Origin: Microbulbifer agarilyticus
GTDB taxonomy: Bacteria > Pseudomonadota > Gammaproteobacteria > Pseudomonadales > Cellvibrionaceae
NCBI RefSeq assembly: GCF_001999945.1
Contig: NZ_CP019650.1
Location: forward strand, 1,488,001-1,552,000
Length of the DNA stretch: 64,000 nucleotides
Direction of reading: 5' to 3'
Positions 42,483 through 63,097 of the stretch are shown here, in pieces. The notes under the pieces were generated by a model. The model did no database searches. It was given only the letters and a program-made list of their open reading frames with translations, and was not told the origin of the DNA. The first letter of the stretch is position 1. The number at the start of each line of letters is the position of its first letter. Position numbers and translations under genes: made by a program.

Positions 42483-44852
42483 ATGTTCCAATTTAAGAAA
42501 AAACCGCTGGCTTATCTTGTGCCGATGTTTGCACTGAGCCTGGCTCCTGCCGCCTTTGCACAGGACAGTGTCGAAGACAATAAAGAGCTAGCTAAAGAGG
42601 GTAGCCAGGAAGTTCAGGCGCTAGAGAATGTGGTTGTTACTGCAACCCGTCGAGAAGCATCTGTAGAAGATATTCCTCTGAACATCTCCGCTATTGGAGA
42701 AGCGGAGATGCGCAAGCGTGCGATCACTGACCTGAAAGATTTGATTGGTGACTCCGTTACTATCAGCGCGCCTGGAAACTCTGCGCGCTTCGCGGACTCA
42801 GTCACCGTGCGCGGTCTCAATGTATCTCCGGTAAACCAGAACAACCTGGAGTTCTTTGTGCGCTCCACTTTGGCGTATTACTTGGATGAGACGCCACTGC
42901 CGCACATTGGCTACCGCATTAAAGATGTTGCGCGAGTAGAAACCCTGCTTGGTCCTCAAGGCACTCTCTATGGCTCCGGAAGCCTGGGGGGCACCGTTCG
43001 CTACATTACCAACCAGCCAAACTTTGATGAGTCTACGGTTCGCCTCAATACCGGCATGTATCAGACCCAAGGCGGTGGCCTGAGTACCGATACCGATGTA
43101 GTGATTAACCAGCCGTTGAGTGAGAATGTTGCGGTCCGCGCATCTCTCGCCTACCTGGATGAGGCCGGCTATACCGACCGTGAAATCTCTCCATCCTTCC
43201 GCTCGGATAATCCTTGGACCAATGTAGATGGCTCAAACAAAACCCGTTACGAAAATGATGACTACCAGTATGTAACCACCGGTAAAGTCGCCCTAGCTTG
43301 GCAGGTGAATGCAGATGCGAAGCTCACGTTGACTCACGCCCAGCAAAGCCAGCTGGCAAACGGCTCGGGCGGCAGCACCATTGATCCCACGCAAGATGGT
43401 GACGTGCTCCAGTATGGTCAGGATGTTGTTGTCGGGCGCTATCGCGAATTTTCTGACCGTTCTTTCACATTGGATTCGGTTGATCTTGAGTGGGATTTTG
43501 ACGCTTTTTCAATGAAGTCCAGCACCTCTTACTTTGAGGATACCCGTGCAGGCCAGGCCAACTACGGTATTGGCTACCTGTACTACGGCGACTGGGGCTG
43601 GAGTGCACTGACTGCAGATAATACGGATGAGACTCCGTATATGGTGTTTGACAATACCTATTCTGGTTTGAGTCACGAGACCCGCTTTGTATCGGAAGGT
43701 GACAGTGCGTTGAGCTGGATCGGTGGTATTTATTACACCCAGCAAGAGCGTGCGCTTACTTTCTCGGAAATCTTCCCTACATTGGATTCTGTAGGTGGCA
43801 TCGATCGTACGGCAGTTGGCGGCACTGTTGACGCCGGCTATTCCGAGGACATTAACTCGGATTACAGTGAATTGGCCTTATTTGGTGAGCTCACTTACGC
43901 AGTGACCGATCGCTGGGATGTAACTCTGGGGGCGCGTGTCTTTAACTTTTCTGATGAGGCTGATCCCCAGATTACCGACTATGCGTTTGGCGCTGTCGAT
44001 ACCAAAGGTGCAACTGATACTTCAGAGTCCGGTGAAAAGTTCTTCAAGTTCAATACGTCGTATAACCTGACTGATGACGTGTTGGTCTATGCGACTGCAT
44101 CGCAGGGTTTCCGTCGTGGTGGTGTGAACGGCTTTAAGAATCTGGGTGATCAGCAGGTTGCTGATAGTACCCAAAATTATTCGCCCGATTCAGTTGATAA
44201 CTATGAGCTCGGTTTGAAGGGTACTTTCTTTGATGATGTGCTCTATATCGAAACAAATGTTTATCAAATTTCTTGGGAAAACACTCAGACTTACTATTCC
44301 CAGAGTATTAATTTCTTCCCCCTGAATGGTACTGCAAATGGTCCTGCGGCGGAGTCTCGCGGCTTCGACTTCAGCAGCCGTCTGAAGCTTAGCGACAACA
44401 TTAACCTGAAGTATGCGACTGCGACTACCGAGGCGAAATGGGCTGAGACCGAAGAGGTGTGTTTGTATACCGATGGTTCAAGCTGTCGTACTTGGGAGAA
44501 AGGTGGGCTTCTTGGTGGTGCCCCAGAATGGCGCCATAACTTGGGAGCAGATTTCTTCTACGACCTCAGCAATGGCCTCACTTTGTCCGCGAATGTGCGC
44601 GGTTCCTATACCAGTGAGATTCAAAGCAACCGCGCTGATTCCCCAGATGAAGAGCCGCCTCGCTACGATTCGTACACTCTATACAGTGCCAACCTGGCTC
44701 TGTCAGGTGACGATTGGACCGCGGGACTTTGGGCTCGAAACCTAACCAATGAACGTACCGAAGTTTCCTATCAGTCAGAGCACTACGTAGGTGAGCGCAA
44801 GATCTACACCGCGCCTCGTACCATTGGCTTGAACGTCTCCTACGATTTCTAA
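42483..44852 (+). CDS. TonB-dependent outer-membrane receptor
   Basis: 789 aa with a signal peptide ending AAFAQD. The TonB-box region is followed by the plug domain (VVVTATRREASVEDIPLNISAI, DSVTVRGLN, GPQGTLYGSGSLGGTVRYIT) and a 22-strand barrel with an aromatic C-terminus (TIGLNVSYDF). No N-terminal STN signalling domain. It is followed by a NagZ-like lipoprotein and D-amino acid genes, so import of muropeptides or peptides is a reasonable guess. It heads this rightward set and ends at a strong terminator. Confidence 0.94.
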   Translation: MFQFKKKPLAYLVPMFALSLAPAAFAQDSVEDNKELAKEGSQEVQALENVVVTATRREASVEDIPLNISAIGEAEMRKRAITDLKDLIGDSVTISAPGNSARFADSVTVRGLNVSPVNQNNLEFFVRSTLAYYLDETPLPHIGYRIKDVARVETLLGPQGTLYGSGSLGGTVRYITNQPNFDESTVRLNTGMYQTQGGGLSTDTDVVINQPLSENVAVRASLAYLDEAGYTDREISPSFRSDNPWTNVDGSNKTRYENDDYQYVTTGKVALAWQVNADAKLTLTHAQQSQLANGSGGSTIDPTQDGDVLQYGQDVVVGRYREFSDRSFTLDSVDLEWDFDAFSMKSSTSYFEDTRAGQANYGIGYLYYGDWGWSALTADNTDETPYMVFDNTYSGLSHETRFVSEGDSALSWIGGIYYTQQERALTFSEIFPTLDSVGGIDRTAVGGTVDAGYSEDINSDYSELALFGELTYAVTDRWDVTLGARVFNFSDEADPQITDYAFGAVDTKGATDTSESGEKFFKFNTSYNLTDDVLVYATASQGFRRGGVNGFKNLGDQQVADSTQNYSPDSVDNYELGLKGTFFDDVLYIETNVYQISWENTQTYYSQSINFFPLNGTANGPAAESRGFDFSSRLKLSDNINLKYATATTEAKWAETEEVCLYTDGSSCRTWEKGGLLGGAPEWRHNLGADFFYDLSNGLTLSANVRGSYTSEIQSNRADSPDEEPPRYDSYTLYSANLALSGDDWTAGLWARNLTNERTEVSYQSEHYVGERKIYTAPRTIGLNVSYDF

Positions 44853-44877
44853 ATAGATCGTTTCATTGTGGATTGAT

Positions 44878-44904
44878 GGGGGCGTTTTTCGCCCCCTTTT
44901 TTTT
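44878..44904 (+). terminator. rho-independent terminator after TonB receptor
   Basis: GGGGGCG, loop TTTTT, CGCCCCC followed by eight T, 26 nt after the receptor stop. Confidence 0.92.
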
Positions 44905-44994
44905 CTTTTCGAAAACTTCCGGTTGCGTTACCGCGCTAAATGTGAAGAATAAATTATTCGCCAATTTCAATTATTTAATAATTGGTTATTATTT

Positions 44995-46944
44995 ATGCTA
45001 GTTAAACCGTTGCTCGTAAGAGCGCTGAAGTCCTGTTCGCTTGTGGCACTGATTGCCACGCTGGGTGCCTGTAGCCAGTCCAATGACATAGGCCAAGACT
45101 CTGCGGGTCCATCACTGGATCTGCGCCAGAAGATTGCGCAGAAATTGATGTTGGATATCCGCTACTTCTGCCCAGATATGCAACGCCCGGAGGAAGGACA
45201 GGGCGGTGCGGCACACTGTGCACAACCGGTAACCTCATTGCCATCAGAACTTGCGACGTTGATTTCCGAGAGTGATCTTGGCGGCATTATTTTGTTCGCG
45301 GATAACCTCGAAAGCAGCGCACAGATGGTGAAGCTGAATCGGGCCCTACAGGCATCCGCCGCTCAATCTCGCTCCGGTTTGCCGCTTCTTATTGGTATTG
45401 ACCAGGAAGGTGGTCGCGTTAACAGGCTGCCGCGTGATGAAGCCGCTGCGTTTGCTGGCAATATGGCAATTGGTGCGACCTATACCCGTGAAGGCGACCG
45501 TTTCGCACGCGCTACCGCAGAGGTAATGGCCGATCAATTGCGTGTGCTTGGCTTTAATGTGAATTTCGCGCCCACACTCGATGTAAACAGTAATCCGGAT
45601 AATCCGGTCATCAATGTGCGCTCCTATAGTGAAACACCACAGGTGGTAGCGGATCTTGGGGCTGCGAGTGTTGAAGGGTTTCAGCAGCGAGGCGTGGCTG
45701 CGACGGTAAAGCACTTTCCCGGCCACGGTGACACGAGCGTGGATAGCCACACCGGGCTTCCCCGTGTAGAGCGTACAGAAGCAGAAGCACAAGCTGTTGA
45801 CCTGCTACCGTTCAAACAGGTGATCGCGCTGGCACAACCCGCGCTCACTATGACTGCACACATTCAATATCCTTCCCTGGATACCACCATGCTCACATCT
45901 CGTTCCGGTGAGCAGATGCTAGCGCCGGCGACTCTTTCCCGTGAGATTTTGACTGGCATTCTGCGCAATGACATGGGCTATCAGGGTGTCATTGTTACTG
46001 ATTCTCTCAATATGGCGGGTATCAGTGATTACTTCACCCCGGAAGAGGCCGTGGTAAACACCTTCAAAGCCGGTGCGGATATTGCGCTTATGCCGATAAA
46101 AATCCGTTACCCGGAAGATCTGGTGTTGCTGGATAAGTTGGTGGATCGCGTTGTTTTTGCGGTTGAAGCTGGCGAGCTGTCTCTCGAAGAGCTCGATGCT
46201 TCCCTTGCGCGTGTGCAAAACCTTAAGCAACAGTTTATCGATGAAAGTTGGGTGGAATTGGCTGAGGGCGTAGCCATTGCTCGAGCAGCGCAAGTGCTGG
46301 CAACAGAAGAGCATCGTGCGTTGGCGGATGCGCTCGCGAGCGCGGCGCTCACTAATATCTTCACTCCTGATCCTTCTGTCCTGCCGGTTATCGATGACTC
46401 GGTCGAGCGTATGCAAATACTCGCACCTCATCCTGCCATTGGTGAAGCCCTCCGCATTGCGCTCATGCAGGTGAGCGATGTCGAGGTGGAAGTCCTAAAT
46501 GCGGAATCTGCGGTAGCAGTGGTGAGTGAATCCGATGCCGACGCATTGGTTGTCGCGAGTATCGTGCCTTCTGAAAGTGCTGTGGAGCTTGGTGGTATGG
46601 AGGATCTCGCGATCCTAAAGCATCGAGTCATCGATTTAGATAAGCGTTATGAAATTTATGTGGACGCGCTCAAGGCTGCAAACACCCGTGGCGCAAAAAC
46701 AGTATTTGTCAGCATGCGTTCTCCCTACGAAGCTGCCCGCTTTGAGAGTCTCGCCGATGTGCACTTAGCGAGCTTTGATTACAAAGCATATCTCGGCGAA
46801 GGGCAGCAACTGGAGGGGCCAATCTATCACGCACTTGCTCGCGCGTTATTGAGCCCTGAGTTGTCCGCAGGAGAATTGCCGGTGACTGTCTCCTCCAGTG
46901 AAGCAGTACATGCGGGCAGTGCGGCTGTGAATACAGAAGGTTGA
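44995..46944 (+). CDS. GH3 beta-N-acetylhexosaminidase (NagZ-like), lipoprotein
   Basis: 649 aa. Lipobox LGAC, so extracytoplasmic, unlike the cytosolic NagZ of enteric bacteria and like the lipoprotein NagZ of Bacillus. The GH3 barrel has GIDQEGGRVNRL, the NagZ signature KHFPGHGDTSVDSHTGLP (Lys239, His240, with the catalytic His/Asp loop) and nucleophile Asp336 in VTDSLNMAGI. A second alpha/beta sandwich domain of about 250 residues follows. It removes GlcNAc from muropeptides. It begins 90 nt past the receptor terminator and 109 nt ahead of the amidase operon. Confidence 0.92.
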   Translation: MLVKPLLVRALKSCSLVALIATLGACSQSNDIGQDSAGPSLDLRQKIAQKLMLDIRYFCPDMQRPEEGQGGAAHCAQPVTSLPSELATLISESDLGGIILFADNLESSAQMVKLNRALQASAAQSRSGLPLLIGIDQEGGRVNRLPRDEAAAFAGNMAIGATYTREGDRFARATAEVMADQLRVLGFNVNFAPTLDVNSNPDNPVINVRSYSETPQVVADLGAASVEGFQQRGVAATVKHFPGHGDTSVDSHTGLPRVERTEAEAQAVDLLPFKQVIALAQPALTMTAHIQYPSLDTTMLTSRSGEQMLAPATLSREILTGILRNDMGYQGVIVTDSLNMAGISDYFTPEEAVVNTFKAGADIALMPIKIRYPEDLVLLDKLVDRVVFAVEAGELSLEELDASLARVQNLKQQFIDESWVELAEGVAIARAAQVLATEEHRALADALASAALTNIFTPDPSVLPVIDDSVERMQILAPHPAIGEALRIALMQVSDVEVEVLNAESAVAVVSESDADALVVASIVPSESAVELGGMEDLAILKHRVIDLDKRYEIYVDALKAANTRGAKTVFVSMRSPYEAARFESLADVHLASFDYKAYLGEGQQLEGPIYHALARALLSPELSAGELPVTVSSSEAVHAGSAAVNTEG

Positions 46945-47053
46945 CTGGTCATATTGCCGTGCCTATCGGTCCTACCTTTGGTTAGTCATTTAGTTTCAAT
47001 CGGTTGGACCGTCACACTAATGCTTTCGAAGTTAGAAAAATAAAAGGTGCACC

Positions 47054-48496
47054 ATGCGGATGGACATGTGTTACATGGATGCCTGTGAAGTGCGCGAGCA
47101 CTATATCCGTCGGGAGTTATCCCCGGTGGAGGTGCTTGCAGCACATATCGAGCGATATGAGCAAATTGGCCATGAAATCAATGCGTTTACGCAGTGCAAG
47201 TTCGAGCGCGCGATGGAACAGGCTCGTGCTGCCGAGCAGGCGTATTCGCGTGGTGAGGCACGGCCGCTGGAAGGCATAATTACCGCAATCAAGGATGAGA
47301 GTTATGTTCGTGGTGAGGTGACCACTAACGGCTCGCGACTGCTGAAAGACAACGTTGCAGAAATCACCGATCCGGTGCCGGAGAGACTGCTCTCTGCGGG
47401 TGCAATATTTCATGCGCGCACGGCAACGCCAGAATTCTCCGTCGCTTCTTATACCTGGTCAGACCTGTGGGGGGTAACACGCAACCCCTGGAACACTGCG
47501 GTTACACCCGGTGGTTCGTCTGGTGGTTCGGCTGCGGCCCTGGCCGCGGGCCTTTGCACCATTGCCAATGGTACGGATATGGGGGGCTCTGTGCGCATCC
47601 CCGCATCTTTGTGCGGCCTAGTCGGGCTGAAGGCTTCGCACGGGCGTATCCCTGAAATCCCTCCTTACAACGTAGATCCCTATGTGCATCACGGCATGCT
47701 AACGCGCAGTGCCCGCGACATGGTGTATTTGTATAACCTGATTTCCGGGCCACATCCGGTTGACCTGGTATCTCAGATTGCCAAAGAGTCGGTACCGGCT
47801 TCGCCGCTTAAGTTGAAGGGACTCAAGATCGGCCTGTCACTGGATTTAGGATTTTTTCCTCTGGATGACGACGTGCGTCGCAACACGATTGCCTACGCAG
47901 AGCAACTGCGTACGCTGGGCGCCGAGGTAGAGCTGGTTACTCTGGATTGGGATGAACGCTGCATTCGCACTGCGCAGATTCACCAGGGTGCATCCATGGG
48001 ACATATGCTGCGGCAGAAATACGACAACCCGGAATGTCGTGATCAGTTAAGTAGTTATGTGCGGCACTATTTTGATCTCTCATCTGCTGCCTCACCGGAG
48101 CGTGTTCAAGAGGCGAACGACTACGCGCAGAAAATGTGGCAATCGTTAGAGCAGGTGTTCCGTTCCTATGACTTCTTGCTGTGTCCGACGGTGTGCACTA
48201 CACGGGTACCGGCTGATTTTGATTATGGTCGCGATTCGCTGGAAGTTGACGGCATGGCCGTCGATCCGGTGAAAGGCTGGTTTATGACCTATCCGTTTAA
48301 CACCTTGAGTCGCTGCCCGGTGCTCTCGCTACCCAGCGGTTTCGGGGATAACGGTGTGCCTACCGGCGTCCAGCTGGTTGGACACCCCTACGCGGATGCC
48401 GCCTTGTTGCAGCTAAGCCTCGCTATCGAACTGGAGGTCGGGAAGTTTATTCACGCGGACAATATGCCGCTGAACGCTGAGGTCCAGGTCGCATGA
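47054..48496 (+). CDS. amidase-signature family hydrolase
   Basis: 480 aa, no signal peptide. The Ser-cisSer-Lys triad is visible: Lys80 in AIKDE, the Ser pair 155-156 in TPGGSSGGSAAALAAG and nucleophile Ser179 in GTDMGGSVRIPA. The family cleaves amide bonds of small molecules or peptides (peptide amidases, Glu-tRNA amidotransferase A, allophanate hydrolase). Its stop overlaps the DUF1445 start (ATGA). In this operon a glutamine-like, pyroglutamyl or muropeptide amide is a sensible guess, but the sequence does not decide. Confidence 0.92.
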   Translation: MRMDMCYMDACEVREHYIRRELSPVEVLAAHIERYEQIGHEINAFTQCKFERAMEQARAAEQAYSRGEARPLEGIITAIKDESYVRGEVTTNGSRLLKDNVAEITDPVPERLLSAGAIFHARTATPEFSVASYTWSDLWGVTRNPWNTAVTPGGSSGGSAAALAAGLCTIANGTDMGGSVRIPASLCGLVGLKASHGRIPEIPPYNVDPYVHHGMLTRSARDMVYLYNLISGPHPVDLVSQIAKESVPASPLKLKGLKIGLSLDLGFFPLDDDVRRNTIAYAEQLRTLGAEVELVTLDWDERCIRTAQIHQGASMGHMLRQKYDNPECRDQLSSYVRHYFDLSSAASPERVQEANDYAQKMWQSLEQVFRSYDFLLCPTVCTTRVPADFDYGRDSLEVDGMAVDPVKGWFMTYPFNTLSRCPVLSLPSGFGDNGVPTGVQLVGHPYADAALLQLSLAIELEVGKFIHADNMPLNAEVQVA

Positions 48497-49302
48497 TCAA
48501 GCAGTGTCCACGTGTTATTCGTGCAGAGATTCGCGCCGGACGTTTTTGTGGCCCGACGTCTGGCCTAGCCGCTGGGTATGTCCAGGCGAATATCGCCCTG
48601 GTACCGGCAGAGTATGCGGATGAGTTTGCACGTTTTTGCGCACAGAACAATCGTGCTTGCGCATTGCTGTATCGCGCGGAACCGGGGCAGTTTTTGATGT
48701 CTGGTTTGGGGCAGGATATTGATATCCGCAGCGACATACCTCGTTACCTTGTCCATCGTGCCGGGCATATGGCAGAAGAAGTGACGGACATCCGTGCGCT
48801 ATGGCGAGAAGATCTGGTTACCTTTGCATTGGGATGTTCTTTTTCCTTTGAGGAAGCGCTAATCGCAGCGGACCTGGAGGTGCGGAATATCGTCGAGGGG
48901 CGCAATGTGCCGATGTACCGCACCAATCGGGAGTGCACGGCGGTGGGCCGGTTCCACGGCAACATGGTTGTAAGTATGCGTCCCTTCAATGGTGAAGCAA
49001 CCGAGCGGGCCTGTGAAATTTCTGGCCGCTATCCACTAGTACACGGTGCGCCGATCTTTTCTGGCGATGCAGCGGCATTGGGCATCGACAATTTGGACGA
49101 GCCAGATTTCGGCGATGCCGTGCGTGTGGATAACGGTGAGATACCTTCATTCTGGGCGTGTGGTGTTACCGCGATTGAAGCGTTGCGCAATGCAAACTTG
49201 CCGTTTTGTATCACCCACGCCCCGGGGCATATGCTTATTTCCGATCGGCTCAATGCTGAACTCGAGTTGGTGACCGATATCCAGTCGCTCGACTGGAACT
49301 AG
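48493..49302 (+). CDS. DUF1445 protein (YcsI type; N-terminal half of DGLUCY)
   Basis: 269 aa, start overlapping the amidase stop by 4 nt. Recognised by CGPTSGLAAGYVQAN, DIRSDIPRYLVHR, LVTFALGCSFSFEEAL, NIVEGRNVPMYRTN and FCITHAPGHMLISD. DUF1445 is annotated as a putative hydro-lyase; the B. subtilis member ycsI sits beside pxpBC. The animal mitochondrial D-glutamate cyclase DGLUCY has a DUF1445-like N-terminal half and a DUF4392 half, both of which are present in this operon as separate genes. A role in D-glutamate to 5-oxo-D-proline conversion is therefore likely, but not shown. Confidence 0.88.
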   Translation: MIKQCPRVIRAEIRAGRFCGPTSGLAAGYVQANIALVPAEYADEFARFCAQNNRACALLYRAEPGQFLMSGLGQDIDIRSDIPRYLVHRAGHMAEEVTDIRALWREDLVTFALGCSFSFEEALIAADLEVRNIVEGRNVPMYRTNRECTAVGRFHGNMVVSMRPFNGEATERACEISGRYPLVHGAPIFSGDAAALGIDNLDEPDFGDAVRVDNGEIPSFWACGVTAIEALRNANLPFCITHAPGHMLISDRLNAELELVTDIQSLDWN

Positions 49303-49312
49303 GTGGTGCGTG

Positions 49313-50017
49313 ATGTTTCAGGTCGTGGACTCAGGTGATACTGCGATTACTGTGTATCTCGCGGATAAGCCCAGTGAGTATTCGCTATCGCGCGTGCTGG
49401 ATTTTGTCGACCGGCTGAAGGTCTCGGTTGGAGACATTCTGCAAGATATTGTGCCCTCCTATTGTGGCGTCACGCTGTATTTTGACGTTTTACGTTGTGA
49501 CTATTTTCTACTGCGGAAAAAGGTTCGCGATATCGGACATGCGCTCGATGCGGAGCAAGCAATGTCGCGAGCGGATGAAGAAGTACGGCTTGTATCCTTG
49601 CCAGTGTTTTACGGTGAAGAGTCAGCACCGGACCTGGCAAGAGTGGCTAAGGCCTGCAATCTGACCATAGACGACGTTATCCAGCTACATTCTTCTCAGA
49701 CCTATCGAGTTTTCGCGCTCGGCTTCCGCCCTGGTTTTGCATTTATGGGGGATGTCCCTGAGGCAATACGGGTTCCGCGCTTGGAATCTCCGCGCAAGCG
49801 CGTTCCTGCAGGCTCTGTTGCCATTGCCGGTAACCAAGCTGCAGTCTATCCGTCCGCAAGCCCGGGAGGCTGGAATCTTGTTGGCCGCTGCCCAACGCAG
49901 TTGTTTTCCTGTAGCCGTGGGCAGCCTGAAGTATTGCTTTCGGTAGGTGCGCAGGTGCGCTTTGCGCCGGTTTCCCACAGCGAATATCTTCAGCTGGGTG
50001 GGCGTTTTGATGAATAG
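49313..50017 (+). CDS. pxpB: 5-oxoprolinase subunit PxpB (KipI family)
   Basis: 234 aa from the ATG at 49313, with AGGTGG six bases before it; the GTG at 49310 directly precedes it. PxpB/KipI motifs: FALGFRPGFAFMGDVPE, PRLESPRKRVPAGSVAIAGNQ and YPSASPGGWNLVGRCP. With PxpC and PxpA it forms the ATP-dependent prokaryotic 5-oxoprolinase that opens pyroglutamate to glutamate. Formerly called allophanate hydrolase subunit 1. PxpA is not in the window. It overlaps PxpC by 8 nt. Confidence 0.92.
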   Translation: MFQVVDSGDTAITVYLADKPSEYSLSRVLDFVDRLKVSVGDILQDIVPSYCGVTLYFDVLRCDYFLLRKKVRDIGHALDAEQAMSRADEEVRLVSLPVFYGEESAPDLARVAKACNLTIDDVIQLHSSQTYRVFALGFRPGFAFMGDVPEAIRVPRLESPRKRVPAGSVAIAGNQAAVYPSASPGGWNLVGRCPTQLFSCSRGQPEVLLSVGAQVRFAPVSHSEYLQLGGRFDE

Positions 50018-51008
50018 TGTAGATTTATTCTCGTCCGGTGCCCCAGTACATGGCCATCAAGCAACCATTCTGAATCCCGGTGCGCTTGCACTTATTCAGG
50101 ATCGGGGGCGCGTTGGGAGTCAACACTTGGGTATTGGCACCAGTGGCGTGGCTGATAGCCATGCGGCCGGTTGGGCCAATCGACTTTTGGGAAATGCCAG
50201 TGACGCAGCGGTGATCGAGCTCTGCTTCGGCAATTTTCGCATGCAATTTCAATCCGAGAGCAGATTTGCGATTGCCGGTGCCGACCTGGGTTGGCGGCTG
50301 AATGGTGTGCCATTGAAAAACTGGTGTTCCTATCGTGCAGATGTTAGCGCGATTCTGGAGGCTGGCATTGCGAACGATGGGTTGCGCGGATATCTGGCAT
50401 TTTCCGGTGGCATCGGGTCGCCACTCGTTTGTGGGAGTCGTTCGACGAGCCAGGGGGATGGTCTCGGCGGGTTACGGGGGGACGGTAAGCCTCTGGCAAA
50501 GGGGGACTGTTTGACTTTCAGAGGGTTGGCAGTTTCTGAAACCGTCAAAACAACCACGCGCTCTGTCCCCGATCAGTTTCAGCGTACTTATGGCTCGGCG
50601 GTGACACTACGCGTTGTGCCGTCCAATCAATTTGATGCCTTTTCTGTGTCGTGCGTACACCGCCTGTTTAGTCGTCGCTACACGGTTGCAGCGGATTCTG
50701 ATCGTATGGGAGTGCGTCTTACCGGTGATGCGTTACCTGAACCCCCAGGTAATCTTGTTTCCGAAGCGGTGAGCCCCGGCGCAATACAGGTGCCGGCCAA
50801 CGGGCAGCCGATTGTACTGATGCACGATTGCCAGACCATTGGTGGCTATCCAAAGCTAGGGCATGTTTACCGTACCGACTTAGATCGCCTGGCACAAGCC
50901 CGCCCGGGTACCGAGGTACAGTTTGTCTTGGGGAATAGGGCGGAATCACAGCACGAGTGGTTATTGCAATCTCAATTTTTTTCCAACGTTACGCAAGCTC
51001 AAGGATAG
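50010..51008 (+). CDS. pxpC: 5-oxoprolinase subunit PxpC (KipA family)
   Basis: 332 aa from the ATG at 50010, within the pxpB stop region (8-nt overlap); upstream frame to 49947 is inside pxpB. Biotin-dependent carboxyltransferase/KipA fold: LNPGALALIQDRGR, GIGTSGVADSHAAGWANRLLGN, CFGNFRMQF and the C-terminal IVLMHDCQTIGGYPKLGHV. It is the larger partner of PxpB. In most genomes a LamB/YcsF (PxpA) gene is next door; here the neighbour is DUF4392 instead. Confidence 0.92.
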   Translation: MNSVDLFSSGAPVHGHQATILNPGALALIQDRGRVGSQHLGIGTSGVADSHAAGWANRLLGNASDAAVIELCFGNFRMQFQSESRFAIAGADLGWRLNGVPLKNWCSYRADVSAILEAGIANDGLRGYLAFSGGIGSPLVCGSRSTSQGDGLGGLRGDGKPLAKGDCLTFRGLAVSETVKTTTRSVPDQFQRTYGSAVTLRVVPSNQFDAFSVSCVHRLFSRRYTVAADSDRMGVRLTGDALPEPPGNLVSEAVSPGAIQVPANGQPIVLMHDCQTIGGYPKLGHVYRTDLDRLAQARPGTEVQFVLGNRAESQHEWLLQSQFFSNVTQAQG

Positions 51009-51014
51009 GTGCCA

Positions 51015-51971
51015 ATGGATAAGTTAGCATTTGAAAAAGGGCTCCGTCCGAGCACCGCACAATTGGCGATGCAATTGGAAGCCTTGATGGTGGCCGGTAA
51101 CCTGCGCGGTATGGCTACCGTGCGTGATAGTGGCTATAGAGGCTTTCTACGCGATTCTGTGCAGGCACTTTTGCGGAATAGTGAACGGGTTGCGATTGTG
51201 AGTGGTTTCCCTGTGGGGGAGCACTTCGAAACCGACGGTCCGGCAGGTGCAATCGCTCTTGCAAATGGGTTGCTGAAGTTGGGGGCGGAGGTCGCTTTAC
51301 TGGGAGCGGCGTCTTACGCCAAGGCTTTAGAGAACGCATTGCCCTCAGCAATTAGCAATGGTGATCAGTTTGCCGGAAGCATCGTATCGATCGAAAAAGA
51401 TCAGAGCGAATTCCAACTCAGAAACTTCGTGAGTGACTTCAAGCCCTCGCTGGTAATTTTCATTGAGGTGCCAGGAGCGGGCGCAGATGGCACCCATCGA
51501 AATATGCGTTTTGAAGATATCAGCGAGCAAACCATATCGTGGGAAACTTTACTGACACTGGTTGCCTGCCCTACCATTGCCATAGCGGATGGCGGTAATG
51601 AGCTGGGTATGGGGCTTGTTGCCTCCCATCTGGAGCAGCTGCCAATCGCCTGTGCCTCAGCGAGTACGGATCATTTGGTCCTCGCCGATGTCTCTAACTG
51701 GGGTGCTTACGCGTTGCTCGCACTTGCATCCGCATGTGTAGGACGGTCGTTGCTGGAAGGATTTGAACTGACAACATGTCTAAATGCACTGGTAGAAGCA
51801 GGCTTTGTGGACGGTGTGACCCAATGCAGTGTTGCTACCGAAGATGGCCTGCCGCTTGCGCGGAGTGAGTCGTTTATCCAGGGTGTGCAAGCACTTGCCG
51901 CGCCAGTAGTGGCCGAGCGACATGTGAGTGAGCTTTTGGGTGCGGATCATCTGGCCTCGGGATACGTATGA
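51015..51971 (+). CDS. DUF4392 protein, D-glutamate cyclase-like C-terminal domain
   Basis: 318 aa from the ATG at 51015 with GGATAGG upstream; the GTG at 51009 is an alternative. DUF4392 is recognised from VAIVSGFPVGEHFETDGPAG, the long alpha/beta body, FIEVPGAGADG, IAIADGGNELGMG and DHLVLADVSNWGAYAL. The human homologue DGLUCY, whose catalytic domain is this family, makes 5-oxo-D-proline from D-glutamate. The gene starts right after pxpC and overlaps the racemase start (ATGA). Together with DUF1445 it suggests disposal of D-glutamate. Activity is inferred, not demonstrated. Confidence 0.85.
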   Translation: MDKLAFEKGLRPSTAQLAMQLEALMVAGNLRGMATVRDSGYRGFLRDSVQALLRNSERVAIVSGFPVGEHFETDGPAGAIALANGLLKLGAEVALLGAASYAKALENALPSAISNGDQFAGSIVSIEKDQSEFQLRNFVSDFKPSLVIFIEVPGAGADGTHRNMRFEDISEQTISWETLLTLVACPTIAIADGGNELGMGLVASHLEQLPIACASASTDHLVLADVSNWGAYALLALASACVGRSLLEGFELTTCLNALVEAGFVDGVTQCSVATEDGLPLARSESFIQGVQALAAPVVAERHVSELLGADHLASGYV

Positions 51972-53101
51972 CGCGTCCTCTGCAAGCCATCGTCAATCTG
52001 GGTAGTATTCTCAGTAATTATCAGCAGGCAAAAACCTTGGTCGGTGGCTCTGTTGCCGCGGTTGTCAAAGCTAATGGCTATGGGCATGGCCTCACCACAG
52101 TTGCTACATATCTCGCTCCGCATGTGGATGCGCTGGCCGTGGCAACGCTCGAAGAGGCGGTTGAAATCCGGGCTGAGAATGTCTCGACTCGGCTACTTGT
52201 TCTAGAAGGTGTGTTTGATGCCGAGGCTCTCGATACTGCTATTCAGCTTAATCTCGATTTGGTTGTGCACAGCGAATATCAGGTCGAACTACTAGAGCGG
52301 TACCACCAGAGCGCCGTAAATACCGCACTCAATATCTGGCTAAAGATTGATACCGGAATGGGGCGTTTGGGGTTTCACCCGGATAAGGCTGCAGAGCGTT
52401 ATAAACAACTCCATTCATTGAGTATTGTTGAGTCAGTAATACTGACCAGCCATTTTGCCTGCGCGGACGAACCGGAACGCGAAGAAAATGTGTTTCAATT
52501 AGCCGCCTTTGACGCCGCTGTTCGCAGTGTGCAACGTGCTCACGATGAACTCTTCGAGTCTAGATCTGAGACGACACCTTTACCGCAAAGTATTGCGAAT
52601 TCAGCTGCTATTATCGCGCTACCAGCGGCACATCGGCATTGGAATAGGGCGGGTATCATGCTCTATGGCAGCGACCCTGTGAACCGAGCCGTTGATGGTT
52701 CAGTCGGCAAACAATCGTTGGCATGCAGCATGACTTTGCAATCGCGCCTGATTGCTGTTCGTTCAGCGGCCAAGGGGGAGTCGATCGGCTATGGTGCGGA
52801 TTTTCGATTTTCGGAGGACGGGCGTTATGGGATCGTCGCTTGCGGATACGGTGATGGGTATCCTCGGCATGCCGGCACTGGGACACCTGTAATGGTTGAC
52901 GGTGTGCGTACGCGCCTGATCGGGCGCGTTTCGATGGATATGCTAGCAGTGGATCTTTCCTGTGTCCCACAAGCTGTAGTAGGGGCTGAAGTAGAGCTCT
53001 GGGGACCCCAGCTATCAGTAGCTGAAGTGGCAGAATGCGCAGGTACCATTCCCTACGAACTGTTTACCGGCTTAACCCAGCGCGTTCCTCGTGTGTATTG
53101 A
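51968..53101 (+). CDS. alr: alanine racemase
   Basis: 377 aa, start overlapping the DUF4392 stop by 4 nt. PLP-binding Lys34 in VVKANGYGHG, the barrel run LWLKIDTGMGRLGF-like segment (IWLKIDTGMG), and the opposite base Tyr275 in IGYGADFRFS; RVSMDMLAVD is also typical. It interconverts L- and D-alanine. As the last gene of a catabolic operon it more likely converts D-Ala from peptidoglycan to L-Ala than supplies cell-wall synthesis, but no dadA is beside it. A glutamate-active relative is less likely. Confidence 0.93.
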   Translation: MTRPLQAIVNLGSILSNYQQAKTLVGGSVAAVVKANGYGHGLTTVATYLAPHVDALAVATLEEAVEIRAENVSTRLLVLEGVFDAEALDTAIQLNLDLVVHSEYQVELLERYHQSAVNTALNIWLKIDTGMGRLGFHPDKAAERYKQLHSLSIVESVILTSHFACADEPEREENVFQLAAFDAAVRSVQRAHDELFESRSETTPLPQSIANSAAIIALPAAHRHWNRAGIMLYGSDPVNRAVDGSVGKQSLACSMTLQSRLIAVRSAAKGESIGYGADFRFSEDGRYGIVACGYGDGYPRHAGTGTPVMVDGVRTRLIGRVSMDMLAVDLSCVPQAVVGAEVELWGPQLSVAEVAECAGTIPYELFTGLTQRVPRVY

Positions 53102-53125
53102 CCAGGAAATTTATCAGCCGGGAAA

Positions 53126-53171
53126 ATACGAATAAGCCAGCGGCATATAATTGCCGCTGGCTTATTCGTAT
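53126..53171. terminator. perfect 20-bp hairpin between convergent operons
   Basis: A 20-base arm starting ATACGAATAAG at 53126 is perfectly repeated in reverse complement at 53152-53171, around the loop TATAAT. A four-A run precedes it, so the minus-strand transcript has TTTT after the stem. It lies between the racemase and amidase stops and probably terminates both transcripts. Confidence 0.75.
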
Positions 53172-53183
53172 AGCATCTTGTGC

Positions 53184-54167
53184 TTAGTTTGCGGCTGTTG
53201 CGATTTTTCCAGTAGGAATTTCGGGGTAGCTACTCAGCTTGCTCGGAAAATATTTCTCTAGCAGTGCGAGCATAATCGCGCGAGTCTGGTTGTCCGCTTC
53301 GCCGTCGACCTTCCATGAACGGAAGTGATACTGAAACGCACGTGTAAACAAGGAAATTTCTTCTTCGCTCGCTTCTTCCGGGTCGATTCCGTATCCGTAA
53401 TCATTCATCCACTGTGCAAAGCGCCGACGCACACTGTCTCTATCGCTGGTGGTGTTGCCATTTAGGTACTCGAGATGACGGTTCACTGTCTCGTCGTCGT
53501 ACCAGGCACCTACACCAGCTTCCGCGAGTTTTTGCCACGGGAACTTGGGGCCCGGGTCAATTTTGTAATGGGGAATGATATCGCCATGACCGACCACGCG
53601 GGTAGGGGTGATAGCAGGGTAGCGCGCCAGGATATCTTTGGACAGCGCGATGACAAGATCAATTTGTTCGGGGTCGAAGTCCGGAAAAAAGCATACCTGC
53701 TCGGCTTCAATGCCTGGCGTTGACTCGCTGGGGGGGCGGCAGTAGCTCTTGTTCACGATTTCGATGCCGATCGAGTGATCGTTGAGTTGTGAGCGGTCTT
53801 CCCACCAACTTGGGCCTGCATGCCAGGCGCGCCTATGCTCATCCACCAACTGATAAACGCGCAGGTCATCGTGAGGGTAGCTGGGATCGTCATTTTCTGG
53901 AATAAGGTAATGGGAACTTACTGGAGACGAACTCGGCTGAGTCAGCACATGCAACGAAGTGTCAAAATCAATGGCGGTAAAGTGCATCACCAGAAAGCGA
54001 ACCCGCTCACTGGCATTTTTTGATTCAACAACTTCAATCTTGTAGTCGTCGCTCTTGTGGTTTAGTCCTGCACCGGTGGTGCTGCAACCACCACTGATAG
54101 TTGCCGCAACGAATGCTGCAGTCATAGCCAGTGGTTTGTAAAAAGACTGCATTACTGAGGCTGGCAT
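53184..54167 (-). CDS. N-acetylmuramoyl-L-alanine amidase, AmiD-like lipoprotein
   Basis: 327 aa. Lipobox ISGGC (Cys28). Amidase_2 domain with zinc ligands His62 (VMHFTA), His194 (VVGHGDI) and Asp204 (KIDPGPKFPW) and catalytic Glu136 (GIEIVN). A C-terminal domain of about 80 residues (RRRFAQWMNDYGYG to ALLEKYFP) resembles a peptidoglycan-binding module, as in AmiD. It cuts the bond between muramic acid and L-alanine. It overlaps the NlpC/P60 gene by 16 nt and ends the leftward operon. Confidence 0.92.
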   Translation of the reverse strand: MPASVMQSFYKPLAMTAAFVAATISGGCSTTGAGLNHKSDDYKIEVVESKNASERVRFLVMHFTAIDFDTSLHVLTQPSSSPVSSHYLIPENDDPSYPHDDLRVYQLVDEHRRAWHAGPSWWEDRSQLNDHSIGIEIVNKSYCRPPSESTPGIEAEQVCFFPDFDPEQIDLVIALSKDILARYPAITPTRVVGHGDIIPHYKIDPGPKFPWQKLAEAGVGAWYDDETVNRHLEYLNGNTTSDRDSVRRRFAQWMNDYGYGIDPEEASEEEISLFTRAFQYHFRSWKVDGEADNQTRAIMLALLEKYFPSKLSSYPEIPTGKIATAAN

Positions 54168-54718
54168 AGTGACTCCTTCAGGCGAATACCAGAGTCAAAA
54201 TCGCTTTGTGGAATCTCTTCGATTTTGACGAAACCATCATTTGACGTCATGCGATGGATATATTTTCCATCCCCAAGGGCTATACCAACATGTGTCAGTA
54301 CGCCGTCGGCCCAGTTGCCATAGGTGTTTTTCAGGAATACTAGGTCACCGGCTTGAAGTGCGGCGATGGAAGCAATTTTTTGCCCAAATTCATCCGCGGC
54401 AAGTGAATCCACGTGTTCAGGCAGTAGCTTGTCGTTGGGGCCCAGCAAATGCGCGTCCCAAGGATTCTGGGTCTCCAAAGTCTTGAAGTGTGGGCCGCAT
54501 GCGGCCACAAGGATTTCTCGGGTCCAATTCATGCACTGCTCGGCTTTTCCCACGCGATACTCCTTGTCCTCCCAAGGAAGCGCTGCCCTGATGAGTTTGG
54601 ACGCCATGGGTTCGATATCTTGACGCGCATTTTGCGCTTTAGAGGTCGCGTTTGACTCGCTGCAGGCAGTAAGTGGCAGCATTGCTGCCAGAGAGAGAGT
54701 GGCAATGATTTTCTTCAT
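54152..54718 (-). CDS. NlpC/P60-like cysteine peptidase, lipoprotein
   Basis: 188 aa from the ATG at 54718, which overlaps the M1 peptidase stop (ATGA); the frame extends 7 codons further up. Lipobox LTAC (Cys19). Catalytic Cys62 in EQCMNWTREIL, His143 in LTHVGIALGDGKYIHR; LQAGDLVFL is a common strand before the His. NlpC/P60 enzymes usually cut D-Glu-diaminopimelate bonds. The domain looks short and somewhat divergent, so a DUF2272-type relative is possible. Releases L-Ala-D-Glu for the D-glutamate genes across the hairpin. Confidence 0.75.
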   Translation of the reverse strand: MKKIIATLSLAAMLPLTACSESNATSKAQNARQDIEPMASKLIRAALPWEDKEYRVGKAEQCMNWTREILVAACGPHFKTLETQNPWDAHLLGPNDKLLPEHVDSLAADEFGQKIASIAALQAGDLVFLKNTYGNWADGVLTHVGIALGDGKYIHRMTSNDGFVKIEEIPQSDFDSGIRLKESLCQPQ

Positions 54719-56946
54719 GGATTTTCTACTTCCACACAATTATTTTTTCGATTGGTATCCGGGGTAAGCCATAAGGGGTCCACGCAGGCTGAAACTAGTT
54801 TTCGATCCAGTGGCAGATCCAACTGCACTGCACCATTCTTTGCGTTCATCCAGGCGTATACGGGTATTGTCAGGTTCTGCGAAGGTGCATTGTAAAAATC
54901 GAGTTGTAATGGAATTGGCAGCAAGCCATTTCCATGGTTTTCAATGGTCAACATGTACCAGTGTGTCTTCCGGGCCGCTTCGTCAGTTTCCAAAGAGTCT
55001 GCTGTTGCGTTAACTCGATCTTCGTGCAATGGGGCCGTGTAGCTGTCTATCAGGGTGGTGTCTTCATCCACCATGAAGTCGCGTATCTGGCCGACGGTAT
55101 AGGCCATGGCTGGTGGTGAGCGCACGTCTTTGGTCGACACGACGAGACGTTGGTCCTCTAATGTGACGGCGCTGATCGTCAGGTCAATGTGTTTGTTCTC
55201 GTAGAACCAGTTACGCCAAAACCAGCTTAAATCGGTGCCGGAAGCGGATTCAATAGCACGGAAAAAGTCACCAGGCATTGGGCGTTTACCCTCCCAGGCT
55301 TTCGCGAAAGCAGAAAGCGCTGGGTCAAATACCTCAGGACCCAAGACGAGATGCCGTAATGTGTTAAGCATGCTCGCAGTTTTGTTGTAGGCGTTGTCGA
55401 TTTTTCGGTACAGGCTATCTGCACTACTCATTATTGGCTGGTGCAGGTCGTGGTTTGTGTATCCGGCTATTGTGCGAGGTTCACCATAGATCACATCGAA
55501 GCTGGCCTCCCAGCTGTGCTCGGCGCGGTACTCAATAAAGCTCACCAGGCCTTCATCCAGCCAGGCCCACTCGCGCTCGTCGGTATTGATTTTCATCGGC
55601 AAGTAATTGTGACCAACTTCGTGTATCACGCTGCCAATAAAATCGTATTTGGTAAGGCGGTCCCATGCCGGGTGCTGTTCAGTATTCACTGTGCGTTCCG
55701 GGCGAGTAGCGACAGTGGCCAGGCCAGGATACTCCATGCCTATGCCCGCCGCATTTACGACGCTAATGCTCTGCATGTTGAGTGGCAGAAGTGCGTCGTC
55801 ATAGACGCGCAAGGTGTGGTCAATTGCTGCAAGACCAAACCGCTCCCAAAGGGAGGCTGCTTCATGTGGGTAAAACTGTTGTAGCTTTCTTCCTTGAGAG
55901 TCTACTTTGGCCTGCCAGAGGAAGGCGGGTGAGGCGGCAAACGCGAAATCACGCATTGTTTCGCCGCTGAAGATCCAGCGGAAATCTTTGTCTGCCGACT
56001 TTTTTCTGCGTTGACTGGCTTCGCTTGGCCCAATAATAGTGACAGCTTCCCGAGATGCGCTTTCCAGGGCGTTGAATTGTTTTTTGTTTAATACCTGCCG
56101 AGGGTTCTGTAAATCGCCGCTGGCGGCCACGGTATAGTTTTCTGGAACCGAGATGGTGACGGAATAATCGCCAAATTCGGTAGAAAACTCCCCTTGTTGC
56201 AAAAATGGCTTCAGCTGCCATCCCGCATAATCGGTATAGGCGAGGGCCCGTGGAAACCAGTGTGCGGCCACATAGATTCGTGCACCATCTCCAAGGGTTT
56301 CGTAGCCGCTGCGTACGCCGGTTGCAACCTTGTCGGTGAGTGGAAGTGTCCAGGATATTTGCAGTGTTTGCGTGTCACCGGAGCGCAATGGCTCGGGTAG
56401 GGTAATCTGCAGATTGGTGCCTTGCTCACGCCATGTGAGGGTGTTGCTGCGGTTGTCCAAGACATTGAGGATATTAAATCCGCCCGCACTCACACGCGCC
56501 TGTTTACGCGACTGACTGCTTGTTTTTCCTGAGGTCAGGAGTTGAAAAGTGGCTTCTGCCTCCGGGCGAAATGCATTGTGATCCAATGCAAAATACAAGT
56601 GCGATAAGCTGTCTGGCGAGTTGTTCTGGTAGTCGATCGTCGCGGTAGCAGTAATTTCATGAGCGATTGGATCAAGTGTCGCGTTGATTGTGTAATCAAC
56701 GGCTTGTTGCCAGTAATTCGTGGCTGGCAGACCATTGGCACTTCGGTAAAAACCGAGGTCCAAATCGGTCTGGGTCAATTTCAGGAAAGGGTCTGCGGAT
56801 GGTTCTTTAGAGGCGGCTGCACTAGACCCGGTAGTATTCACCAGCAGGGAACAGCTTAGCCCCCAGATTGCCAAACTTCGCCATGAGGGCCGTTTGGCGC
56901 CTCTTGCGGAGCGTGTTACCTGATCCTTTGCGCTCGAGGTATTCAT
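54715..56946 (-). CDS. M1-family metallopeptidase, exported
   Basis: 743 aa from the ATG at 56946, which overlaps the upstream MFS stop by 4 nt; the longer frame from 57042 lies inside that gene. A long N-region and hydrophobic core (LAIWGLSCSLLVNTTGSS) mark export. Zinc site: His442, Glu443, His446 in HEVGHN and Glu465 in WLDEGLVSF, the HExxH-x18-E of the family. The substrate loop GIGMEYPG replaces the usual GAMEN. M1 enzymes remove N-terminal residues from peptides. In this operon it could trim muropeptide or dietary peptides. Confidence 0.88.
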   Translation of the reverse strand: MNTSSAKDQVTRSARGAKRPSWRSLAIWGLSCSLLVNTTGSSAAASKEPSADPFLKLTQTDLDLGFYRSANGLPATNYWQQAVDYTINATLDPIAHEITATATIDYQNNSPDSLSHLYFALDHNAFRPEAEATFQLLTSGKTSSQSRKQARVSAGGFNILNVLDNRSNTLTWREQGTNLQITLPEPLRSGDTQTLQISWTLPLTDKVATGVRSGYETLGDGARIYVAAHWFPRALAYTDYAGWQLKPFLQQGEFSTEFGDYSVTISVPENYTVAASGDLQNPRQVLNKKQFNALESASREAVTIIGPSEASQRRKKSADKDFRWIFSGETMRDFAFAASPAFLWQAKVDSQGRKLQQFYPHEAASLWERFGLAAIDHTLRVYDDALLPLNMQSISVVNAAGIGMEYPGLATVATRPERTVNTEQHPAWDRLTKYDFIGSVIHEVGHNYLPMKINTDEREWAWLDEGLVSFIEYRAEHSWEASFDVIYGEPRTIAGYTNHDLHQPIMSSADSLYRKIDNAYNKTASMLNTLRHLVLGPEVFDPALSAFAKAWEGKRPMPGDFFRAIESASGTDLSWFWRNWFYENKHIDLTISAVTLEDQRLVVSTKDVRSPPAMAYTVGQIRDFMVDEDTTLIDSYTAPLHEDRVNATADSLETDEAARKTHWYMLTIENHGNGLLPIPLQLDFYNAPSQNLTIPVYAWMNAKNGAVQLDLPLDRKLVSACVDPLWLTPDTNRKNNCVEVENP

Positions 56947-58127
56947 GCGGATTGTGCTACCAATGGGGCAGATTCCACTTCTCGCCGCTCGGTGATGAGT
57001 GCCATCACTAAGGTTGCGGCCATACAGGCCATGCCCAGCCAAAGTACGGCAGTAAAGTCGCTTGCGCTGATTAGGGCTGCGGCCAGGGGCGGGCCGGCAA
57101 TTTCACCTACTTTGAACGCGCTGGCGCAAAGGACGATAAAGCGTCCGGTGTCGTCGACCCGGTTGAATTGGTCCATCAGTAGCGGCAGTGAGAAACTCCA
57201 GAAAAACTGGAAAACAATCGATGTGGTTGCGTACAGCGCATAGGCGCCACCGGAGTATTCTCCCGTGAGTATCGCCATGGTGAAAATTTGAATAATGAAG
57301 GCGGTTAGCAAGGTAAATGCGCGCCCCACAAACTTGCTAAGCCAGGGGGTTGCCAGGGATCCCAATCCGCTGATGGCAAACCCGATCCCCAATAAGTCAC
57401 CAACATCTGCGCTGCTCAACCCCAGATTTATGCCGATGCGCTCGAGGTAGGCCCAAACTGAGGAAACACCACAGTAGTAAACCACTGTGGTGGCAAATAC
57501 CAGCAGGGCTTTTCCAGAGAGCAGGGTGGTGAAAACATTACCACTCTCATTGGCTGGGGACTTCTGTGATTTGGGGAAACTCAGGAAACACAAAAGCAGG
57601 GTGGCCAGCAGCCAGCCGTTTAGATAGTGGAAGAATGGGTTGATTTCAGCTTCCCCCATTAATCGAGGCAGCGCGAAAAAGCCAATGGTGCCGAATACAA
57701 CCTGTGCCGTAACCATCAAGCCAAAGGCCATCTGTGGGTTTTTCCGATCCCCCAGGCCTGCCAGCGCAATTGCGTAGGCAGAGCCGCAGCCGATACCCGC
57801 GATGATGCGGATAACCATCAACGTGGTAAAGCTATCCACCGAAAGGCTTGCCAGGTTACCAGCGATAAACAGTCCGAGTCCGGCGAGTACCACTGGTCTC
57901 CAGGACAGCTTTCGTACCCAGAAAATCGCTGATGTAGAGCTCAGGAATATTCCAATTACGTCCGCTGAGGCTAACCAGCCAATTTCCTGGCCGGAAAAAT
58001 TCCCCCTATCTGTTAGTGCACCAACCCACAGTGGTAACAAGGTCAGGATCGAAGCCCCCATCATCGCAACAAATAGCAGGCTCACAAGATTCTGAAGAGA
58101 ATTTGGCTGATCGTTTTTTGAGTACAT
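56943..58127 (-). CDS. MFS transporter
   Basis: 394 aa with 12 predicted hydrophobic segments and MFS landmarks (GWLASADVIGIFLSS, RIIAGIGCGSAYAIAL, WRPVVLAGLGLF). It is shorter than sugar porters and does not carry AmpG signatures I can recognise. As the first gene of the peptidase/amidase operon it probably moves amino acids or small peptides released by those enzymes through the inner membrane, or exports a product. The start is 462 nt from the divergent TonB receptor. Confidence 0.85.
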   Translation of the reverse strand: MYSKNDQPNSLQNLVSLLFVAMMGASILTLLPLWVGALTDRGNFSGQEIGWLASADVIGIFLSSTSAIFWVRKLSWRPVVLAGLGLFIAGNLASLSVDSFTTLMVIRIIAGIGCGSAYAIALAGLGDRKNPQMAFGLMVTAQVVFGTIGFFALPRLMGEAEINPFFHYLNGWLLATLLLCFLSFPKSQKSPANESGNVFTTLLSGKALLVFATTVVYYCGVSSVWAYLERIGINLGLSSADVGDLLGIGFAISGLGSLATPWLSKFVGRAFTLLTAFIIQIFTMAILTGEYSGGAYALYATTSIVFQFFWSFSLPLLMDQFNRVDDTGRFIVLCASAFKVGEIAGPPLAAALISASDFTAVLWLGMACMAATLVMALITERREVESAPLVAQSA

Positions 58128-58589: not shown

Positions 58590-58595
58590 ATGACT

Positions 58596-62937: not shown

Positions 62938-63097
62938 TTAAAACCTCGGTACGAGATTGTCGCAACCTGAATTCGGTGTTGTAATAAATCGCGAAGCATT
63001 ATGCAGGCTATATTGCCACTGAAAGCGTTGTGATTACACCGTAAAAGCGTCGCAGTGAAATTGGTAGTTTGGTTTCGAGAGAGAACTTTTGGGGGTT

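Follow-up and report, generated by a model that had tools for sequence, protein, structure and literature searches.

Positions 42483-58127 of the window, by which we mean the whole 64,000-nt stretch analyzed (C1:1488001-1552000 of a 4.26-Mb single-contig Microbulbifer genome), very probably hold a peptidoglycan (PG)-utilization locus with a D-glutamate (D-Glu) module, which would form the left part of a larger island. Two convergent gene sets make up the locus, with 82 bp between their converging ends (read directly): a plus-strand set running from a TonB receptor (42483-44852) to an alanine racemase (51968-53101), and a minus-strand set running from a major facilitator superfamily (MFS) gene (58127) to an Amidase_2 gene that ends at 53184. 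All 12 open reading frames (ORFs) were confirmed to be open at the coordinates below, with families above the Pfam cut-offs, in agreement with the two facing operons described in a first-pass annotation of this DNA. The many 4-nt overlaps noted there were likewise confirmed, four ATGA overlaps being read directly (48493-48496, 51968-51971, 54715-54718, and 56943-56946). In the following list, paired scores are those of the match and of the model cut-off.

42483-44852, plus strand: TonB-dependent receptor TBDR1 (plug and beta-barrel)
44995-46944, plus strand: two-domain GH3 lipoprotein of the YbbD/NagZ type (3bmx, E = 8.3e-91)
47054-48496, plus strand: amidase-signature enzyme (PF01425, 3.6e-87)
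48493-49302, plus strand: DUF1445 / D-glutamate cyclase family (PF07286, D-Glu_cyclase, 1.3e-60; NF003969, 362.4 vs. 324)
49310-50017, plus strand: PxpB, 5-oxoprolinase subunit (CT_C_D; TIGR00370, 157.6 vs. 145.55)
50010-51008, plus strand: PxpC, 5-oxoprolinase subunit (CT_A_B; TIGR00724, 242.7 vs. 230.2)
51009-51971, plus strand: DUF4392 protein (GLUCM-like_C; PF14336, 2.1e-56; 4fc5/4dwz, E about 3e-46)
51968-53101, plus strand: alanine racemase Alr (TIGR00492, 324.8 vs. 168)
53184-54167, minus strand: putative N-acetylmuramoyl-L-alanine amidase of the AmiD/AmpDh3 type (Amidase_2; 4bxd, 2bh7)
54152-54718, minus strand: probable NlpC/P60-type peptidase, a lipoprotein here (NLPC_P60, 27.8 vs. 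23 bits)
54715-56946, minus strand: exported M1-type zinc aminopeptidase (PF01433, 2e-11; 44.3 vs. 27.7 bits)
56943-58127, minus strand: MFS transporter (MFS_1, 2.7e-19)

Judging from the overlaps and from relatives, PxpC probably starts at the ATG at 50010 and the M1 protein at the ATG at 56946.

The same gene content recurred throughout a set of 12 distinct Microbulbifer loci, a number reached by taking L025-L028 to be the same records as G038, G011, G021, and G018. TBDR1, the amidase-signature gene, DUF1445, DUF4392, NlpC, M1, and MFS were found by tblastn in all 12 loci; DUF4392 was the search bait, and its own 12/12 therefore holds by construction. Amidase_2 was present in 11 of 12 loci and GH3 in 10 of 12. 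A LysR gene was found in 11, the twelfth region ending before the site. PxpB and PxpC occurred in 9 of 12 loci, Alr in five, and PxpA in four, this one not being among them; PxpBC, the racemase, and PxpA are thus optional members of the locus. A C39-like peptidase was found in four loci (L017:13091-13720, also L018-L020), and a class-IV aminotransferase in none of the 12 (tblastn). A check set beforehand, for conserved linkage in relatives, did not refute the earlier reading: PG and D-Glu genes occurred together in 12 distinct loci.

Of 40 genomes of the genus (own genome included), 11 had a match to DUF4392, one of these matches being a 68-residue fragment; this fragment (G025) was not counted among the carriers, nor was a match of 19.6 bits in G506. 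NlpC was matched in 10 of the 40 genomes, which were exactly the 10 with full-length DUF4392, so that the two genes were jointly present in 10 genomes and jointly absent from 30 (Fisher's test, P = 1.2e-9, not corrected for relatedness), as expected of conserved linkage. In the scan of the order, strong NlpC matches were found in two of 371 genomes, both Microbulbifer, and 14 matches were partial and weak. Against M. agarilyticus, the ratio of nonsynonymous to synonymous substitution rates (dN/dS) of the 12 genes (LysR was outside this comparison) ranged from 0.025 to 0.151 (PxpB, 0.120; PxpC, 0.122), which indicates purifying selection. Recurrence in 11 other distinct Microbulbifer loci together with these low ratios argues that the locus is not a chance assembly.

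A second PG cluster lies past the window end, at C1:1553055-1579577 (L207:1055-18942 and L208:413-7577, two records that cover C1:1552001-1592000). Its predicted products include a 1003-amino-acid protein with a CarboxypepD_reg domain, an SH3-NlpC/P60 protein related to a putative gamma-D-glutamyl-L-diamino acid endopeptidase (3m1u, 3.5e-23), a relative of L-Ala-D/L-Glu epimerase (1jpm, 4.3e-101), an RpiR regulator, a PF00144 serine hydrolase, an LD-carboxypeptidase, an antiporter-family carrier, an Orn/Lys/Arg decarboxylase-family protein, a fusion of M15 (D-Ala-D-Ala dipeptidase family; VanX) with NamZ, GlcE-like (281 vs. 284) and GlcF proteins, MurQ over its cut-off (393 vs. 302; 28.8 kb from the locus), a kinase under its model's cut-off, a sodium (SSF) symporter, and a MurR/RpiR-type regulator. 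The stretch from NamZ to MurR lies 21.8-33.5 kb downstream of the MFS gene, and the distance from the receptor (C1:1530483) to the MurR-type regulator (1579577) is about 49 kb. Besides this genome, the block was found on the MFS side in 8 of 10 relatives tested (M. agarilyticus, L024, was not among the ten because its region is too short), and in G011, G021, and G035 the first match lay no more than about 1.5 kb from the MFS gene. It is this adjoining cluster, here and in the eight relatives, that marks 42483-58127 as the left part of a larger PG-utilization island. Such an island would have two D-Glu routes, an epimerase acting on L-Ala-D-Glu on the right and DUF1445, DUF4392, and PxpBC on the left. 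The claim that sugar, stem peptide, D-Glu, and D-Ala are all handled in one locus accordingly fits the extended island; between 42483 and 58127, only GH3 serves the sugar. With in-cell sugar handling placed outside these coordinates and PxpA outside the locus, the earlier interpretation is supported. A second MurQ etherase gene was observed at C1:2477605-2478474 (421.7 bits).

Family assignments among the wall-degrading proteins varied in strength. Residues 32-634 of the GH3 protein aligned with B. subtilis YbbD/NagZ (3bmx), its best solved relative; the protein has a lipobox-like LGAC and the motifs KHFPGHG and TDSLNM, and it missed the cut-off of the NagZ equivalog NF003740 (187.6 vs. 207 bits). 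With its two-domain length and these motifs, it is better filed as a YbbD-type N-acetylglucosaminidase. The Amidase_2 protein was closest to AmpDh3 (4bxd, 8.6e-56) and AmiD (2bh7, 7.3e-54), with motifs MHFTA, GHGD, and KIDPG of the His/His/Asp zinc site. The M1 protein has GMEYP, HEVGH at 474, and WLDEG at 494 of the listed ORF, that is, HExxH plus a downstream Glu, and HEVGH was invariant in a nine-row alignment. The NlpC protein has motifs EQC and THVG; its structural model (mean pLDDT, 68.9) matched MepS best in Foldseek, and also CwlO and other NlpC/P60 proteins (E from 5e-5), with TM-scores by query below 0.5, which support the fold class only. The amidase-signature enzyme has AIKD, GGSSGGS, and TDMGGS. 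We propose TBDR1 as an importer of PG fragments, D-isoglutamine or another amide as the substrate of the amidase-signature enzyme, and the released peptide or amino acid as the cargo of the MFS carrier.

Both domains of vertebrate D-glutamate cyclase (also named DGLUCY) are present at the locus, as matches to PF07286 and PF14336 over cut-off, but here they are encoded by two separate genes with the oxoprolinase subunits between them. The mouse DUF4392-domain protein is a D-glutamate cyclase that converts D-Glu to 5-oxo-D-proline (9030617O03Rik / C14orf159; excerpt of PMC5339696), and the other domain of the vertebrate enzyme is DUF1445 (excerpt of PMC5132392). Solved relatives of DUF1445 (3db9, 2pif) are deposited under UPF0317 names. 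The DUF4392 protein is homologous to Thermococcus TON_0340, with E74, D76, E153, D194, E198, and D279 aligned with the six acidic metal ligands of that protein and invariant in alignment A1. TON_0340 itself is described as a weak Mn-dependent phosphatase (excerpt of PMC5132392), whereas DUF4392 here stands in a D-amino-acid context. PxpC fell below the equivalog NF045499 (201.3 vs. 500, scanned from the upstream GTG at 49947). The sole PxpA match in the genome lies at C1:3499270, beside another PxpBC; the locus PxpC was distant from the genome's other PxpC in the PxpC tree, where the long branch of the latter leaves its placement unsure. Alr at the locus is one of two genome copies (the other at C1:3570217), and canonical NagZ (449.8 bits) and AnmK (464.6 bits) were also found elsewhere. 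As NagZ, AnmK, Alr, and PxpABC all occur elsewhere in the genome, the locus is extra to these copies. For D-amino-acid transaminase, nothing above the model cut-off was found in this genome.

In the pathway that we infer, with substrates, localizations, and step order all conditional, the TonB receptor would carry muropeptides across the outer membrane, the NagZ-type lipoprotein would remove N-acetylglucosamine, and the AmiD-like amidase would release the stem peptide. NlpC/P60 and M1 would then break this peptide down as far as L-Ala, L-Ala-D-Glu, and D-Glu, among other small products, one of which the MFS carrier would bring into the cell. In the cytoplasm, DUF1445 with DUF4392 would convert D-Glu to 5-oxoproline, a downhill step needing no ATP; PxpBC, with PxpA from elsewhere in the genome, would open the ring to glutamate at the expense of ATP, and Alr would racemize Ala. 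The neighboring half would handle N-acetylmuramic acid (MurNAc) through NamZ, the symporter, the kinase, and MurQ, and would add the L-Ala-D/L-Glu epimerase route. In the sea, PG and D-amino acids make up a large store of organic nitrogen that turns over slowly. The island joins genes for import, sugar, stem peptide, and D-amino acids in a single contiguous set open to testing, and it gives DUF4392, whose function is unsettled, a pathway context from which a substrate can be guessed and then assayed.

Which protein, if any, would turn D to L is the least certain element of this pathway. For the L form, cyclization of Glu runs downhill in energy, and PxpABC spends ATP to reopen the ring; PxpBC is thought to carry out a phosphorylation and PxpA the opening itself (excerpt of PMC13274462). 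Pairing a cyclase with PxpABC makes sense only if the stereocenter is inverted or the cell exports or imports the ring form. Of the conserved genes, this leaves DUF4392, whose putative two-metal carboxylate site would suit an inversion. It is conceivable, although we hold it doubtful, that DUF4392 (or DUF1445) inverts 5-oxo-D-proline to 5-oxo-L-proline at this site and that PxpABC reopens the product, as a general route from D-Glu to L-Glu; DUF1445-PxpABC-DUF4392-transaminase-Alr, the transaminase being one for D-amino acids, would then be a so far undescribed D-amino-acid operon in marine gammaproteobacteria, fixed in Microbulbifer onto a whole PG-eating island. Against inversion stands the reported excretion of 5-oxo-D-proline by humans (excerpt of PMC5339696), which argues that the vertebrate enzyme leaves the stereocenter as it is. 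In loci that have them, the transaminase and Alr could provide a direct alternative, taking D-Glu by way of D-Ala to L-Ala. We also considered the amidase-signature enzyme as a ring opener replacing PxpA (the gene is retained in loci without PxpBC, and its relatives include the cyclic-amide hydrolase 3a2p) or as an amidase acting on D-isoglutamine, and DUF4392 as a phosphatase on phosphorylated oxoproline. The idea that PxpBC acts without PxpA by design was rejected: PxpA lies within the locus in L016-L019 and three loci lack PxpBC, so that loss by degrees is simpler.

The D-Glu genes also occur together outside Microbulbifer. In the DUF4392 contig scan, 80 of 253 confirmed loci were taken, five of them Microbulbifer; the nearest named relatives of the DUF4392 gene in these 80 were Microbulbifer, M. 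agarilyticus first (87% identity), and tblastn placed DUF1445 near DUF4392 in 71 of the 80 and PxpA in 67. Order-wide and class-wide searches gave 55 regions, one from Microbulbifer and 54 (L117-L168, L170, L171) from outside the genus; the class-wide DUF4392 scan matched three of 369 genomes, this one included. Near DUF4392 in the 55 regions were DUF1445 (50), PxpA (49), PxpB and PxpC (48), a class-IV aminotransferase (52), and Alr (43), the usual order being DUF1445-PxpA-PxpB-PxpC-DUF4392-aminotransferase-Alr. The three aminotransferases of this kind that were scanned matched D-amino-acid transaminase models best, all below cut-off. DUF1445 was present in 52 of 54 DUF4392 carriers, and in the other two DUF4392 lies within 350 bases of the contig start. 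Of 409 matches in a protein search made with the DUF4392 alignment, the 120 listed each had PF14336 alone, with no fusion among them. In regions with DUF1445 alone (20 of 43 genomes without DUF4392), PxpABC was near in 15 of 20, whereas neither the aminotransferase (0/20) nor Alr (0/20) was found. The D-amino-acid genes thus follow DUF4392 and not DUF1445 or PxpABC, within a DUF1445-only sample that is small and drawn from related genomes. The arrangement looks like a D-amino-acid operon, and no description of it was found in the literature searched.

Recent capture of the Microbulbifer set from this order-wide operon was rejected by two trees (rooted at midpoints; the 20 non-Microbulbifer DUF4392 loci were hand-chosen). 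Microbulbifer rows formed one group in the PxpC tree (45 rows; 99/99) and in the DUF1445 tree (52 rows; 100/100), and the other DUF4392-linked rows excluded Microbulbifer (100/99 and 87/95, respectively). Two loci outside the genus join D-Glu genes to PG genes. In Thalassotalea sp. G2M2-11 (L056), DUF1445 and DUF4392 lie in one stretch with NamZ, a BadF kinase-MurQ fusion, an SSF symporter, a class-IV aminotransferase, a YbbD-like GH3, an RpiR regulator, and an FAD/Fe-S oxidase of a type that includes D-lactate dehydrogenases. In a gammaproteobacterial metagenome-assembled genome (L065), a protein that fuses Amidase_2 and a peptidoglycan-binding domain to a PBP4B-like serine hydrolase (L065:4119-6590; PBP4B model, 497.8 vs. 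385) directly precedes DUF1445-PxpABC-DUF4392-aminotransferase. Both appear to be independent joins.

Several observations weigh against PG utilization as the function of the locus. Relatives of the PG genes were found near only L056 and L065 among 75 non-Microbulbifer loci, many on short contigs, and near none of the 54 non-Microbulbifer regions save for three weak SSF-symporter matches; these panels were BLAST queries, which distant families would escape. The downstream block was not found beside the locus in G002 (save one match to the NamZ2 query) or G018. Relatives of the amidase-signature gene (26-30%) lay near DUF1445 in 6 of the 20 regions without DUF4392, which indicates that this gene is not PG-specific. 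Family matches of NlpC and M1 were weak, the NlpC model was of middling confidence, and the substrates of the MFS and amidase-signature proteins are conjectural. Because PxpBC is absent from three of 12 loci and PxpA from this one, ring opening by the locus appears dispensable; Alr is likewise missing from most loci. Finally, the reported excretion of 5-oxo-D-proline by humans leaves inversion to the L form by the vertebrate enzyme undocumented.

Three other explanations exclude neither PG utilization nor one another, and their odds do not sum to one. Recovery of the cell's own shed PG rather than foreign material is unlikely and partly compatible with PG utilization: enzymes of the NagZ and AmiE types take part in B. 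subtilis turnover (excerpt of PMC5061867) and the parts of the locus would also act on the cell's own muropeptides, but canonical NagZ and AnmK are already encoded elsewhere, the marker NlpC is absent from 30 of the 40 genomes of the genus, as would suit a catabolic trait that is optional, and TonB receptors flank the enzymes here (42483, 58590), although only 4 of 12 regions had a match to the second. A general D-amino-acid or pyroglutamate operon, with wall hydrolases adjacent by happenstance, would account for most other genera, which show DUF1445-PxpABC-DUF4392-transaminase-Alr without PG hydrolases; it is made quite improbable by the two Microbulbifer halves, which face each other and whose presence and absence coincide (10 of 40 genomes carry both), and by the independent join in Thalassotalea. 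It is very unlikely that the receptor and peptidases handle other cargo, for example gamma-linked Glu compounds or peptides containing D-amino acids. No substrate is assigned to TBDR1, M1, MFS, or the amidase-signature enzyme, and GH3 is missing from two of 12 loci, but the AmpDh3/AmiD-type amidase (11/12) and the YbbD-type GH3 (10/12) are nearly constant and the cluster with NamZ, MurQ, LD-carboxypeptidase, and epimerase adjoins the locus in 8 of 10 relatives tested.

Set against described systems, the PG-utilization locus, with its D-Glu module, would be a variation, new in composition, on the salvage systems known for murein peptides and muropeptides. As in B. subtilis murQRP-amiE-nagZ-ybbC, where the two enzymes act sequentially outside the cell (excerpt of PMC5061867), it combines a YbbD-type NagZ with a MurNAc-L-Ala amidase. 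The neighboring half supplies MurQ, a MurR-like regulator, and NamZ. Unlike that rescue operon, the amidase here is of the AmiD/AmpDh3 family, MurQ lies in the downstream half and not in the locus itself, TonB receptors, DUF1445, PxpBC, DUF4392, Alr, and M1 are added, and an SSF symporter and kinase stand in place of the phosphotransferase system (PTS) carrier MurP (no genome search for a PTS carrier was made). NamZ belongs to the YbbC family. With the B. subtilis ykf-type murein-peptide genes, the downstream half shares an epimerase, a relative of the gamma-D-Glu-diamino acid endopeptidase, and an LD-carboxypeptidase, whereas the half within the window has D-Glu cyclase and oxoprolinase genes instead. 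PxpB and PxpC recall the PxpABC operons of B. subtilis and C. glutamicum, which open 5-oxoproline with ATP (excerpt of PMC13274462), but PxpA is outside the locus here. No literature title or abstract start describing the composition of the locus was found, many journals being outside the coverage, which is in line with the earlier remark that no described system of exactly this composition was known.

Three further features adjoin or interrupt the gene sets.

40957-41874, minus strand: LysR-type regulator, divergent from the receptor (Pfam HTH_1, LysR_substrate)
44878-44896, plus strand: intrinsic terminator or attenuator after the receptor (7 G-C pairs, then a T-run)
58590-61283, plus strand: second TonB receptor, TonB-Xanth-Caul type, an optional neighbor (TIGR01782, 593.5 vs. 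310)

The LysR gene, 608 bp upstream of the receptor, is the likely regulator of the locus. The terminator scan gave 19 terminator-like sites against 17.9 expected, so the case for the receptor terminator rests on conservation, a hairpin plus T-run being found 3' of the receptor in 11 of 11 loci examined (own locus included). The left arm, previously read as a single operon, would then consist of a receptor unit and a separate operon, or be subject to read-through or attenuation, which suggests that the receptor level is set differently from that of the enzymes. The promoter scan found five promoters against 13.8 expected in shuffles. Beside the second TonB receptor is a tryptophan-halogenase-family gene (61351-62937), followed by an ORF that runs off the window (63089-64000); at the start of L207 is a weak match to a halogenase (30% over 130 residues), perhaps a continuation of this ORF. 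On the other side of the locus, the protein at 38654-39400 showed a sub-threshold match to YkuD (L,D-transpeptidase; 20.9 vs. 23.4 bits).

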